Positions 1-32,886 of a stretch of DNA of 32,886 bases are shown piece by piece. Position 1 is the stretch's first letter. Each line of letters starts with the position of its first letter. The DNA is from Akkermansia muciniphila (GTDB taxonomy: Bacteria > Verrucomicrobiota > Verrucomicrobiia > Limisphaerales > UBA9464). The DNA is taken from the NCBI GenBank assembly GCA_945898055.1, contig CAMDGV010000050.1, positions 1 to 32,886 of the forward strand. Direction: 5' to 3'. The notes under the pieces are model-generated. The model made no database searches and was not told where the DNA came from. It saw only the letters and a program-made list of their open reading frames with translations. Made by a program: the position numbers and the translations under genes.

Positions 1-1857
1 TACGCTCTTGTTTCAACTGAAAAACCAGTCGTTCCAATCGTAAACACAGCTCCGAGCTTTGCAGTTGCCAACAAGACGGTGAACGAGTTGTCCCTTCTCA
101 CTTTTAATCTAAGCGCAACGGATAGTGATTTACCGGCTCAGACCTTGACCTACTCGTTAGTGAGTGGTCCTGCGGGGATGACGGTGAGCGTTGGCGGAGC
201 GGTGAATTGGACCCCAACCGAAGTCCAGGGCCCTTACACTCTTAGTCCCGTGGTAGTGAGGGTGAGTGATGGAGTGGCGAGTGTGGACACGAGTTTCTTC
301 GTGACCGTGAGTGAAGTTAACACCGCTCCGATTTTGGCAGCGGTTGCCAGCAAGACGGTGAACGAGTTGGTCCTTCTCACTTTTAACCTAAGCGCAACGG
401 ATAGTGATCGACCGGCTCAGACCTTGACCTACTCGTTAGTGAGTGGCCCTGCGGGGATGACGGTGAGCGGTTTTGGAGCGGTGAATTGGACCCCAACCGA
501 AGCCCAGGGCCCGAGCATTCTTAATTCCGTGGTAGTGAGGGTGAGTGATGGAGTGTCGAGTGTGAACAGTACCTTCAATGTGTCGGTGTCTGAAGTGAAC
601 ACCGCTCCGCAGCTGGCGGCGGTTGCCAACAAGACGGTGAACGAGTTGTCACTTCTCACTTTTAACCTTAGTGCTACGGATAGTGATCGACCCCTTGTTC
701 AGACGTTGACCTACGGATTGGTACGTGGCCCTGTGGGGATGACGGTGAGCGGTGGCGGAGCGGTGAGATGGACCCCAACAGAAGCCCAAGGGCCCATGGT
801 CACCAATGTGTTAGTGAAGGTGAGTGATGGAACCGCAAGTGTAACCAATACCTTCACTGTGTCAGCCACTGAGGTGAACGTGGCACCGAACTTTGCCGTG
901 GTGACTTCGAAGACGGTGGCAGAGTTGGAGACTCTCTCTGTGACCTTGAGTGCCAGCGATACTGATCTGCCGCTCCAATCCTTAACCTATTCGCTGGTGA
1001 CCGGTGAGTTTCCGACTGGAATGGTGCTGACAGGCAACACGTTAACTTGGACCCCAACCGAAGCCCAAGGCCCGAGTGTAAATACCGTGGGAGTGAAGGT
1101 AAGCGATGGGTCAGCCAGTGTGACTAATCGATTCACGGTGACCGTGAATGAAGTAACCTTGGCTCCGCCTCAGGGATTTGTGTTGATTCAGTCCGGAACG
1201 TTTATGATGGGGAGCCCGACTTCTGAAGCTGATCGTAGCTCTGACGAAGTGCAACATAGCGTGACCTTGAGTCGAGGATATTGGATGAGTGATCACGAGA
1301 CGACGCAGGCGGAGTACGAGAGTGTGATGGGGAGTAATCCGAGTTCATTTAAGGGTTCGACGTTGCCGGTGGAACAGGTGAGTTGGGATGAAGCCGTTTC
1401 GTATTGTGCGAAGTTGACGGTGAGGGAGTTAGCCGCTGGACGGATAGTAGCGGGTCAAGCGTATCGATTACCGACAGAAGCGGAGTGGGAGTATGCGGCA
1501 CGAGCAGGGACGACAGGGAGGTTTGCGGGAGAGTTAGACTCAATGGGATGGTATGGAGACAACTCAGGAGGAAAGACCCACGCTGTGAAGGGTAAACAGG
1601 CAAATGGATGGGGTTTGTACGATATGCACGGGAATGTGTTTGAGTGGTGTTCGGACAGGTACGGAGCCTATCCGAGTGGAAGTGTGACGGATCCTACGGG
1701 GCCTACGGGGGCGACCGATGGGGATTTTCGCGTGTTTCGTGGCGGCAGCTGGTTCAGCGGGGCTAGGAACTGCCGTTCGGCCCACCGGAACAGGAATGAG
1801 CCGGGCTCCCGCTTCAACAACCTAGGCTTCCGTTCCGTCCTCAGTTCATCCCGCTAA
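1..1857 (+). CDS. Surface protein: Ig-like repeats plus C-terminal SUMF1/FGE-type domain (5' partial)
   Basis: The frame is open from base 1, so the start lies upstream; the GTG at 79 is internal to a repeat and is not a real start. Four Ig-like (He_PIG/cadherin-like) repeats of 92-93 residues cover 43-1155, each with the pattern NTAP, NEL.LLTFNLSATDSD, QTLTYSLV, WTPTEAQGP and VKVSDG. A SUMF1 domain follows from about 1168 to the stop, with GTFMMGSP, ETTQAEYESVMG, LPTEAEWEYAARAG, WGLYDMHGNVFEWCSD and RVFRGGSW. The paired cysteines of true formylglycine-generating enzyme are not present near the C-terminus (only NCRSAHR), so a sulfatase-activating role is unlikely and a ligand-binding lectin-like fold is the better reading. 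The end of the domain resembles DGR variable regions (see separate feature). Secretion is inferred from the repeats, since the N-terminus is outside the window. Domain calls are firm; the role is inferred. Confidence 0.85.
   Translation, partial: YALVSTEKPVVPIVNTAPSFAVANKTVNELSLLTFNLSATDSDLPAQTLTYSLVSGPAGMTVSVGGAVNWTPTEVQGPYTLSPVVVRVSDGVASVDTSFFVTVSEVNTAPILAAVASKTVNELVLLTFNLSATDSDRPAQTLTYSLVSGPAGMTVSGFGAVNWTPTEAQGPSILNSVVVRVSDGVSSVNSTFNVSVSEVNTAPQLAAVANKTVNELSLLTFNLSATDSDRPLVQTLTYGLVRGPVGMTVSGGGAVRWTPTEAQGPMVTNVLVKVSDGTASVTNTFTVSATEVNVAPNFAVVTSKTVAELETLSVTLSASDTDLPLQSLTYSLVTGEFPTGMVLTGNTLTWTPTEAQGPSVNTVGVKVSDGSASVTNRFTVTVNEVTLAPPQGFVLIQSGTFMMGSPTSEADRSSDEVQHSVTLSRGYWMSDHETTQAEYESVMGSNPSSFKGSTLPVEQVSWDEAVSYCAKLTVRELAAGRIVAGQAYRLPTEAEWEYAARAGTTGRFAGELDSMGWYGDNSGGKTHAVKGKQANGWGLYDMHGNVFEWCSDRYGAYPSGSVTDPTGPTGATDGDFRVFRGGSWFSGARNCRSAHRNRNEPGSRFNNLGFRSVLSSSR
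43..1155 (+). repeat. Four tandem ~279-bp in-frame Ig-like repeat units
   Basis: Units start at 43, 319, 598 and 877, giving lengths of 276, 279, 279 and 279 bp. Units 2 and 3 are close at the DNA level, sharing long runs such as the stretch encoding TVNEL..LLTFNLSATDSD and the stretch around TWTPTEAQGP-like segments; unit 4 is the most diverged. All unit lengths are multiples of three, so gain or loss of units by recombination would keep the frame. More units may lie upstream of the window. Confidence 0.85.
1741..1857 (+). other. Candidate DGR variable region (VR) at the end of the SUMF1 domain
   Basis: The last ~115 bp encode RGGSW followed by FSGARNCRSAHR, NRNEPGSRF and NNLGFRS. DGR targets with this fold usually carry RGGSWNNN..NCRSA.RN......NN.GFR, with AAC (Asn) codons in the template at the variable sites. 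Here the residues replacing those Asn or Asp are F (ttc), S (agc), H (cac), G (ggc), S (tcc) and F (ttc). Every one of these codons keeps the third-position C and could come from AAC, or GAC for ggc, by changes at adenine only. Fixed neighbours such as aac tgc cgt and aac aac remain. The codon style is richer in C-ending codons than the preceding part of the gene. No template repeat or reverse transcriptase is in the window, so this is an inference from fold, position, length and codon pattern. Confidence 0.55.
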
Positions 1858-1879
1858 AAGCGGACCGGCCGGAGGCCGG
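1851..1879 (+). other. Two adjacent perfect GC-rich hairpins at the stop codon
   Basis: Hairpin A pairs CCGCT (1851-1855) with AGCGG (1859-1863) around the loop AAA and includes the TAA stop. Hairpin B pairs CCGGCC (1865-1870) with GGCCGG (1874-1879) around the loop GGA. There is no T-run after either, so they do not look like an ordinary intrinsic terminator. In characterised DGRs a short GC-rich hairpin or cruciform just downstream of the variable region promotes homing, and the position here matches. A role in mRNA 3'-end protection is the alternative. Confidence 0.6.
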
Positions 1880-2203
1880 AATCGGAGGAGCGAGAGCGGA
1901 GCGAGGGCGACGTAATGGGACTCGGCGAGGGACGAGCAAGGGTCCCAAGACGTTGCCTAGAGCGAGGAGAGCGGAAGCGTGTTGGAGGGAAAATCTCTTC
2001 AACACGCTCCATGCAATGGTCGATTTTTCTAAGTCTGCCCCTTGAGGGTAAGCTCGGGATCGCCCTTCCGGCTTAAATCTAATCTTTCTGTTTTTTTGAT
2101 CTAATCGTCTCAGGGGTTAATTCCCGGCAAAGAACAGTTTTCGTCCTTTTTTCTCCCAATAGGGTCGGCCTTCAAATCAATGGTAGAATCAATCAACCTT
2201 TGT
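1880..2203. other. Non-coding stretch with one imperfect hairpin
   Basis: No credible gene. The first ~90 bases are rich in gagcg/gagcgg words. A hairpin pairs 1976-1984 (agcgtgttg) with 2000-2008 (caacacgct), with a short inner stem and a small bulge; a T5 run follows about 12 bases later, so it could be a weak terminator for the surface-protein gene. The rest shows nothing recognisable. Confidence 0.4.
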
Positions 2204-2633: not shown

Positions 2634-2975
2634 ATGAACTCAATTGCAGCGTCTCGGAAGCGTCGTGGTCTTGCTGAAATCCAACTGCGGATCGCTGAAT
2701 TTAAAAGCTCGGAACTCTCGAAGACTGAGTTTGCTGCGAGATTGGGAGTTCATCCTCTTTCGATGGATCGCTGGCTACGGATTACTCAGCCCACCCAGTC
2801 CATCGCCTCCCAAAACAGTCCGGCCTTCGTTCCCGCGCTCTGCCCGCCGTCAGCTTCGGCGAGTTCTGCCGACGGGCCGGAAAGTGTTGCCCCATTCGAT
2901 TTGGCACTTCGACTACCCCCAGGTTTGGATCCCTCAACCTTGCAGTCCATTCTTGATATTCTTTCCAGATGCTGA
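2634..2975 (+). CDS. tnpA: IS66-family accessory protein TnpA
   Basis: This 113-residue protein has the layout of IS66 TnpA: an N-terminal helix-turn-helix (about residues 15-48, with LSKTEFAARLGVHPLSMDRW), a Pro/Ser/Ala-rich linker, and a short C-terminal segment (FDLALRLPPGLDPSTLQSIL) that matches the rl.lp.gfd...L.sil..L ending of the family. Its stop overlaps the start of a tnpB fragment in an ATGCTGA arrangement, the usual translational coupling in IS66 elements. The transposase gene itself (tnpC) is absent. The reading frame is intact but belongs to a dead element. HTH and context make the family assignment good. Confidence 0.75.
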   Translation: MNSIAASRKRRGLAEIQLRIAEFKSSELSKTEFAARLGVHPLSMDRWLRITQPTQSIASQNSPAFVPALCPPSASASSADGPESVAPFDLALRLPPGLDPSTLQSILDILSRC

Positions 2976-31731: not shown

Positions 31732-32012
31732 AAAGAAGTTCAGCCAACTCAGGCCTTTGCAGTACGCCGCTTGAGCCAAGTAAATCCGAGGAGGGTCGAC
31801 ATAAAAACTCCAGCGGCGAGGGTCTCAGGTTCGGGAATAATACCGAGGTCGGTTAATGAAACATTATCCAGCACGACGTTAGCTTGCGACCCCTGGACTG
31901 AAGAGAGGGCAGACCAGTAAAAGTCAGCACCGGTAACAGTCGCGGCGGGAATCCAATCGATAGTGTACTGTACCCAAGGGACGGTCGACTCTGCGGTATC
32001 AGACCAATTCTG
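31732..32012. repeat. Tandem duplication, first copy (3' part of PEP-CTERM gene)
   Basis: 31732-32011 matches 32607-32886 at an offset of 875 bp with about 8 mismatches in 280 bases and no gap (roughly 97% identity by eye). The match starts just outside the coding region and runs to the window edge, so the full unit is probably about 875 bp and spans the whole gene. Confidence 0.92.
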
Positions 32013-32594
32013 ATTTCTAGTCAGAGTTACGTACTGACTCGTTCCGGGCGGACTGGATAGTGGGTTAATTTCGAATCCTATCTTGGCTCCACTTGCTGCG
32101 GAATTAGCATCGGCAGCATAGAAAGAGAAGCGATAGGTGTTGCCGGCGGTGAAATTAAGGCCGGTCCCGTATCGAAGACAGGAATTGCCACCGACAGCCG
32201 CGGAAGTCGTGCTTAAATAGAGGTATTTGGCTCCATATTGAGCCATCACTGGGCTGTCACCATCAGATACCCAGCGGTCAACGTCTCCGTTGGCCCCAGA
32301 AGCGAAGCTCCAATTATCGATTGACCAACCCGTTGTGACTCCAGTGGTGGAGGCCCCCGTATTATTTGCCCCATTTGCAGTCTGCCCAGCGAAGGCTGAC
32401 GACGACGTCCCAAAAGTGCCCGATTCAAAACTGCCGTTTGAGAACAAATTTTGAGGGGGGGTGAGGATTATGGGGGTTGTGGGTCCTAGTGAGGTGAAAC
32501 CCCTTTGAGCGTGGAGGCTTTGCCCTTGGGCCCAAATTGCACCCATTACGAAAGAGAGATAGGCCTTCGCCGAGGCTTTGGAGGATTTCTTCAT
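31749..32594 (-). CDS. PEP-CTERM sorting domain protein (copy 1)
   Basis: 281 residues. A signal peptide (MKKSSKASAKAYLSFVMGAI, cleavage near AQG) is followed by a carbohydrate-binding-like beta domain: NLFSNGSFESGTFG, WSIDNWSFASG, YGAKYLYLSTTSA, CLRYGTGLNFTAGNTYRFSF and NVVLDNVSLTDLG. This NGSFE...L.L..G.tY...F...DNV layout is typical of DUF642/CBM-like exported proteins. The C-terminus is IPEPETLAAGVFMSTLLGF then WLKRRTAKA, the PEP-CTERM signal for exosortase processing. Its start codon is 29 bp from the stop of a near-identical second copy lying upstream in the direction of transcription. Confidence 0.9.
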   Translation of the reverse strand: MKKSSKASAKAYLSFVMGAIWAQGQSLHAQRGFTSLGPTTPIILTPPQNLFSNGSFESGTFGTSSSAFAGQTANGANNTGASTTGVTTGWSIDNWSFASGANGDVDRWVSDGDSPVMAQYGAKYLYLSTTSAAVGGNSCLRYGTGLNFTAGNTYRFSFYAADANSAASGAKIGFEINPLSSPPGTSQYVTLTRNQNWSDTAESTVPWVQYTIDWIPAATVTGADFYWSALSSVQGSQANVVLDNVSLTDLGIIPEPETLAAGVFMSTLLGFTWLKRRTAKA

Positions 32595-32606: not shown

Positions 32607-32886
32607 AAAGAAGTTGAGTCAACTCAGGTCTTTGCAGTACGCCGCTTGAGCCAAGTAAATCCGAGGAGGGTCGACATAAAAACTCCAGCGGCGAGGGTCT
32701 CAGGTTCTGGAATAATACCGAGGTCGGTTAATGAAACATTATCCAGCACGACGTTAGCTTGCGACCCTTGGACGGAAGAGAGGGCAGACCAGTAAAAGGT
32801 AGCACCGGTAACAGTCGCGGCGGGAATCCAATCGATAGTGTACTGTACCCAAGGGACGGTCGACTCTGCGGTATCAGACCAATTCT
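32607..32886. repeat. Tandem duplication, second copy (cut by window edge)
   Basis: Near-identical to 31732-32011. Differences seen include the codon for the last residue (Ala to Thr), Asp to Thr in the TGA.FYW segment, and several silent changes, which suggests the copies diverged under selection or very recently. Confidence 0.92.
32624..32886 (-). CDS. PEP-CTERM sorting domain protein (copy 2, 5' end outside window)
   Basis: Only the last 87 codons are visible; the stop is TGA at 32624-32626. The product ends NVVLDNVSLTDLG, IPEPETLAAGVFMSTLLGF and KRRTAKT, the same PEP-CTERM signal as copy 1 with two amino-acid changes (TGADFYW to TGATFYW, and the final Ala to Thr). It lies directly upstream of copy 1 in transcription order and may be co-transcribed with it. 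Frame and motif are intact, so it is likely functional. Confidence 0.88.
   Translation of the reverse strand, partial: NWSDTAESTVPWVQYTIDWIPAATVTGATFYWSALSSVQGSQANVVLDNVSLTDLGIIPEPETLAAGVFMSTLLGFTWLKRRTAKT

Follow-up and report, generated by a model that had tools for sequence, protein, structure and literature searches.

The 3' end of the first gene in the window (the whole stretch of DNA analysed here, 32,886 nucleotides, which is contig C50 of its genome) is almost certainly the variable region (VR) of a chromosomal diversity-generating retroelement (DGR), with the reverse transcriptase (RT) and template repeat (TR) on another contig, C10. The genome is a draft in 136 contigs, 4.63 Mb in total, with 95% completeness and 0.5% contamination. 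The features on which the argument turns are as follows.

1..1857, plus strand: target gene, 5' end lost at the contig start; Ig/cadherin-like repeats, then an FGE-type C-type-lectin domain (open reading frame; Pfam Big_9, Cadherin_4, FGE-sulfatase)
1168..1854, plus strand: FGE/SUMF1-like domain with the VR at its C-terminus (PF03781)
1729..1848, plus strand: VR, identical to the template C10:1628-1747 at 108 of 120 positions; of the 12 mismatches, 11 are at template A
1843..1848, plus strand: 3' edge of the VR homology, holding 1845 C>T, the T being present also in the C70 copy
1851..1863, plus strand: hairpin 1, CCGCT-AAA-AGCGG, 5 bp stem and 3-nt loop, spanning the stop codon (1855-1857)
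1865..1879, plus strand: hairpin 2, candidate target-site hairpin, CCGGCC-GGA-GGCCGG, 6 bp GC stem and GGA loop
1860..2028, plus strand: 3' module downstream of the VR, common in whole or in part to C70:1-205, C10:3-101 (just upstream of HRDC-RT) and C96
C10:192-671: HRDC gene (PF00570, E 4.4e-21)
C10, ATG at 616 to stop at 1596: RT, frame intact, starting inside the HRDC gene in another frame
C10:1628-1747: TR, beginning 31 bases past the RT stop

The target gene, its template and the reverse transcriptase

A whole-genome search with positions 1700-1880 returned four places: the query itself, C10:1628-1747 (90%), C70:1-56 (95%) and C34:42684-42831 (68%). The alignment of the window VR with C10 is ungapped over 120 bases and holds 12 mismatches which, read from TR to VR, are A>T (7), A>G (2), A>C (2) and C>T (1). 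Template A occupies 30 of the 120 positions, and the hypergeometric probability that at least 11 of 12 mismatches fall on it is 4.7e-7; expressed as identity, the VR matches the TR at 89/90 non-A sites and at 19/30 A sites. All 11 A-site mismatches lie in codon positions 1 and 2, and they alter seven codons: AAT>TTT (1735), AAC>TTC (1753), AAC>AGC (1756), GAG>GGG (1759), AAC>CAC (1783), AAC>TCC (1807) and AAC>TTC (1813). The sole non-A mismatch, 1845 C>T, is synonymous (codon AGC>AGT, 1843), lies at the 3' edge of the homology and is possibly the IMH/IMH* difference. Free change of every template A would, by computation, permit about 2e16 protein variants.

The first-pass annotation had proposed looking elsewhere in the genome for a near-copy with its mismatches at A, and the C10 copy is such a sequence. 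Of the seven codons changed, five agree with the list in that annotation; the derivation of ggc from GAC fits none, the change being to GGG from GAG, and the TTT at 1735 was missed. The VR bounds of 1741-1857 are likewise replaced by 1729-1848.

The FGE DNA beside the VR differs by 7% from the copy on C7 and by 13% from that on C96. Set against this 7-13% drift in its immediate surroundings, the single difference from the TR among 90 non-A positions makes the VR look recently rewritten.

PF03781 is found with E 1.7e-42 over residues 391-613 (the open frame has 618 codons), C-terminal of the Ig/cadherin-like repeats (Pfam), in agreement with the SUMF1/lectin-like C-terminal domain that had been annotated; the motifs RGGSW, NCRSAHR and NNLGFRS are all found in the translated frame. 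The PDB entry most similar to the FGE part is 2y3c (TvpA, T. denticola variable protein 1; E 7.4e-37, with the next at 1.4e-16), and its alignment with the target covers most of the VR. These matches point to a C-type-lectin-fold protein with its VR at the 3' end. The further suggestion of a surface binder displayed on Ig-like repeats agrees with the domain order, while the N-terminus, and hence any signal peptide, lies outside the window.

An RVT_1 search of the whole genome gave a single match over the Pfam cut-off, C10:826-1410; a second match, on C16, fell below it. In a phmmer search against the PDB the best match of the C10 RT is 8ub7 (E 1.2e-36, next best 5.6e-16), which the search table labels 'Reverse transcriptase' and which we take to be the Bordetella phage DGR RT. 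DGR RTs carry the signature [I/L/V]G...SQ, and the IGSLISQ of the C10 protein, which also has an active-site YMDD, conforms to it. By its motifs and its best PDB match the RT adjoining the TR appears to be DGR-type, and the overlapping HRDC gene is the accessory gene of the element (Avd, HRDC or similar in DGRs). The DGR-type RT that had been predicted to exist elsewhere in the genome is thus present, intact and next to the template. Downstream of the TR, C10 has a match to the IS110-family transposases (G000:C10:2074-3076, L007); directly behind the template, this transposase seems split over two frames, with PF02371 on one part and no family on the other.

The two hairpins with 3-base loops that had been described at the stop codon are present, at 1851-1863 and 1865-1879. 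The fold of 1845-1885 has a z of -2.66 against dinucleotide shuffles; a stem of at least 6 arises in 6.9% of 1000 mononucleotide shuffles of the hairpin stretch, and 9 of the 20 VR or TR ends scanned are without a hairpin stem of at least 5 bp. By themselves, the hairpins are weak evidence for a DGR. A GGA loop on a GC stem occurs also at C70, L151, L064 and L102. Further into the 3' module, positions 1906-2008 contain two more inverted repeats, longer but imperfect (one of 16 nt at 81%, the other of 15 nt at 87%), in which some of the changes between copies seem to preserve pairing. An Rfam search of 1600-2400 at E 0.1 gave nothing, and no terminator-like or promoter-like sites were found in 1700-2200.

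Two other parts of the window deserve mention. The stretch behind the target has few long frames, among them a 113-aa frame at 2634-2975 (plus strand) which presumably resembles a small IS66-type transposon protein. Near the far end, on the minus strand, 31749-32594 and 32624-32884 are two tandem genes with near-identical C-terminal parts, the second cut by the contig end; we take their C-terminal ends to be a PEP-type sorting signal.

Copies in the genome and alternative readings

Pieces of the target recur across the assembly. C10:1-101 equals C70:40-140 exactly, and window 1866-1964 is 91% like C10:1-101. C70:1-205 is 87% like window 1825-2028, so C70 holds the end of a second VR followed by the 3' module; parts of the module are also on C96. 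The FGE domain in which C7 terminates is 93% like window 1179-1442; another, on C96, is 87% like window 1179-1669 but has a different tail. Assembly breaks probably fall at these repeats. Own-genome searches with the C48 and C96 tails for a second template, one that would serve the C48, C32 and C96 tails, gave relatives and short chance matches and no adenine-rich template. At G000:C31:30794-32353 a 1162-aa frame carries two tandem FGE domains of another type.

Some of these remains bear on whether the element still works. The gene could be a target rewritten once, its pair with the template real but the element now silent, and this we consider unlikely. Such a history would suit the dead RT fragment at C70:22575-22685, which contains a stop and whose DNA is 93% like C10 1366-1464, as well as the decayed VR at C34:42684-42831 and the transposase match behind the TR. 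Against it, the RT frame is intact and retains both YMDD and SQ, and the near-perfect agreement of VR and TR at non-A sites contrasts with the drift nearby. Ongoing activity is likely, as far as sequence can indicate it.

A little less probable again is that the window gene and the RT cassette are true neighbours, in tandem or head to head, hidden by a contig break. Both contigs end in repeats, C10 begins within a copy of the 3' module, and the order at the related locus of Verrucomicrobia bacterium ADurb.Bin122 is FGE-HRDC-RT; moreover, C50 and C10 each have an open left end, and these two ends could face each other across a gap, so the window gene could be a head-to-head neighbour of the cassette. 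Since C10 starts inside a module copy, a target probably does lie just upstream of HRDC-RT, and by analogy with the ADurb.Bin122 order we infer one more target in the gap there. However, the copy of the module in front of HRDC and that in the window disagree at 9/99 positions, and the window runs 31 kb beyond its VR without an RT over the cut-off, which argues that the RT is directly preceded by a different copy and not by the window gene. Diversification in trans, as first proposed, is therefore supported at the level of contigs, the sole RT over the Pfam cut-off being on C10 and the window gene on C50; that the target is remote is established for the contigs alone, both of which end in repeats.

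Ordinary diversifying selection in an FGE paralogue, with the C10 similarity a pseudogene relation, is extremely improbable: FGE genes are many in this genome (15 matches) and their C-terminal loops vary anyway, but this leaves the adenine restriction (P about 5e-7) and a C10 copy with AAY or GAG at the changed sites, 31 bases behind a DGR-type RT.

Relatives within and beyond the genus

A profile of 8 RTs was searched against 19 genomes of the genus, drafts in which an RT can be missed. Matches occurred in 4/19 genomes, and an intact DGR RT in 1/19, namely that on C10; the profile matches on C70 of the same genome and at G008:C201 are fragments. Several other matches were considered as DGR RTs, and all but that at G008:C180 were set aside. 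Those at G008:C132 and G010:C30 have YADD and QGG..SP and are for that reason read as group II intron type, those at G010:C100 and G013:C158 lack the SQ motif, and G008:C180 has no frame of at least 150 aa with the motif. An HRDC search matched 18/19 genomes, and all matches but the one on C10 start at query residue 73 or 74 within long frames; these others would be RecQ.

VR-like FGE tails were found in other genomes of the genus. Variability was measured on eight ungapped tails (own C32, four from G010, and one each from G017, G001 and G012), with seven omitted: the window VR, G008:C125 (frameshifted), and C48, C96, G005:C146, G010:C144 and the second G010:C126 tail (length changes or another type). 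The G017:C234 and own C31 tails are partial matches only. Among the eight, the mean pairwise difference in codon positions 1 and 2 is 0.69 and 0.63 at template-A sites, while the non-A sites give 0.11 and 0.10 (P 4e-13 by a rank test with sites treated as independent), and the contrast persists without G012 (0.66 versus 0.09) and without both G012 and C32 (0.67 versus 0.07). At the 11 template AAY codons, 87/88 tail codons end in C or T; the corresponding figure for five ordinary FGE genes, taken as controls from the own genome, is 41/55 (Fisher P 5e-6). It was 48/66 before exclusion of a further control, L017, in which the wrong frame had been matched.

An inferred template matched 9/19 genomes at E <=0.1 and 5/19 (own, G001, G005, G010 and G017) at E < 1e-15, with none in G012 at E 0.1. 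As a search for another template in the genus it gave 20 matches, those inspected being VR-like tails, the C10 template and short ends, with no further template among them. We read the tails, from their patterns of difference, as probable former targets: the DGRs concerned would have had related templates, and their RT would be lost or missing from the assemblies. Since they vary at template-A sites and yet an intact DGR RT is present in 1/19 genomes, some look like leftovers of lost DGRs. Ordinary FGE loop variability retains some probability as the source of the variation. In the genus-mate G010, a 1207-aa frame on C126 (L147) has two successive FGE tails of different template types (GFRPVLSS, and one ending GFRSALPPGQP), as if it were a target of two DGR lineages.

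Beyond the genus, 15 of 59 genomes (own and relatives together) match the RT at E 1e-3 or better, and same-family genomes of other genera do so at E < 1e-20 in 6 of 17 cases. RT relatives are found at 8 genome-contig loci and at 11 viral-contig loci, the latter with 24-38% identity. A TR/VR finder that reports a pair solely when 80% or more of its mismatches lie at A was applied to 15 RT loci. Eight of them, belonging to six same-family genomes, yielded TR/VR-like pairs; the remaining seven, ADurb.Bin122 included, yielded none. TR and VR are separated by at most 5.4 kb in all eight, and in the four inspected (L099, L100, L103 and L104) the variable copy ends an FGE-like frame.

Comparison with known systems and proposed mechanism

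The closest named relative of the RT is that of ADurb.Bin122 (locus L064), 61% identical to the C10 RT over the best segment, a kinship that points to Verrucomicrobiota as the phylum of the genome. That locus also has an FGE gene (PF03781) with a similar tail scaffold and an HRDC gene (PF00570), but there the FGE gene stands directly before HRDC-RT and the finder gave no TR/VR pair. The Bordetella phage BPP-1 DGR belongs to a phage, has Avd as its accessory protein and acts on a target in cis. It shares with our case the RT family, the adenine-restricted TR/VR differences and a hairpin just past the VR near the stop codon, although phage DGR hairpins have 7-10 bp stems and 4-nt GRNA loops, compared with 5-6 bp and 3 nt here (from part of PMC3240598).

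A close likeness is to the T. denticola DGR, that of TvpA. Its published description includes an HRDC gene that overlaps the RT, targets of the FGE family, targets at remote sites, and strains that have targets but lack RT or TR (part of PMC4891356). Likenesses in the same part of that paper extend to the reading frame of the overlap, which again differs from that of the RT, to the target genes in RT-less strains, to the remoteness of targets (here on different contigs) and to one genome that retains a leftover target belonging to another TR type. There are also differences: in T. denticola the accessory gene lies between TR and RT, whereas the order here is HRDC-RT-TR, and lipoprotein signal peptides are predicted for 62% of its targets, whereas the target here has Ig-like repeats (PMC4891356). 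In Thiohalocapsa PB-PSB1, according to parts of PMC10907252, VRs match a TR elsewhere in the genome at non-adenine sites and are read as diversified in trans, and one architecture has FGE targets; there, however, diversification was seen in reads and STAND NTPase domains are part of the FGE targets, whereas the pair described here is known from the assembly. The kind of system is already known, and this pair is a further example of a DGR. Divergent DGR RTs in Verrucomicrobiota are mentioned in the part of PMC10907252 used here, and among the matches listed for a literature search combining DGR and Verrucomicrobia terms there was no title on Verrucomicrobiota DGRs, a weak sign of absence.

Based on these comparisons we can outline how the element might act. 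By analogy with studied DGRs, the TR would be transcribed and copied by the RT, which would misread adenines, probably with the help of the HRDC protein. The mutated cDNA would then replace the VR in the FGE domain by homing, a step in which the hairpin may function. The binding face of a putatively surface-displayed protein would change while its scaffold was kept, and with it presumably the ligand bound.

We tentatively extend this proposal to the genus as a whole, as a possibility that we rate below even. One RT/template cassette would feed dispersed targets sharing a portable 3' unit, made up of the VR end and the module of about 170 bases; cassettes would come and go in the genus while targets stayed, their adenine-patterned VRs stored as frozen binders after loss of the RT. 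Remote targets of this sort would be missed by the approach of a metagenome survey published in 2021, which covered over 30,000 DGRs, as described in part of that paper (PMC8144416).

In the present case the target was spotted from sequence alone and the template was found later, which suggests that orphan-looking VRs can be used to find missing DGRs. Furthermore, the genus spans a range of states: at one end an intact cassette is accompanied by several target-like genes, at the other there are VR-like genes but no detected cassette. It therefore allows one to trace how a DGR is lost and what becomes of its targets.
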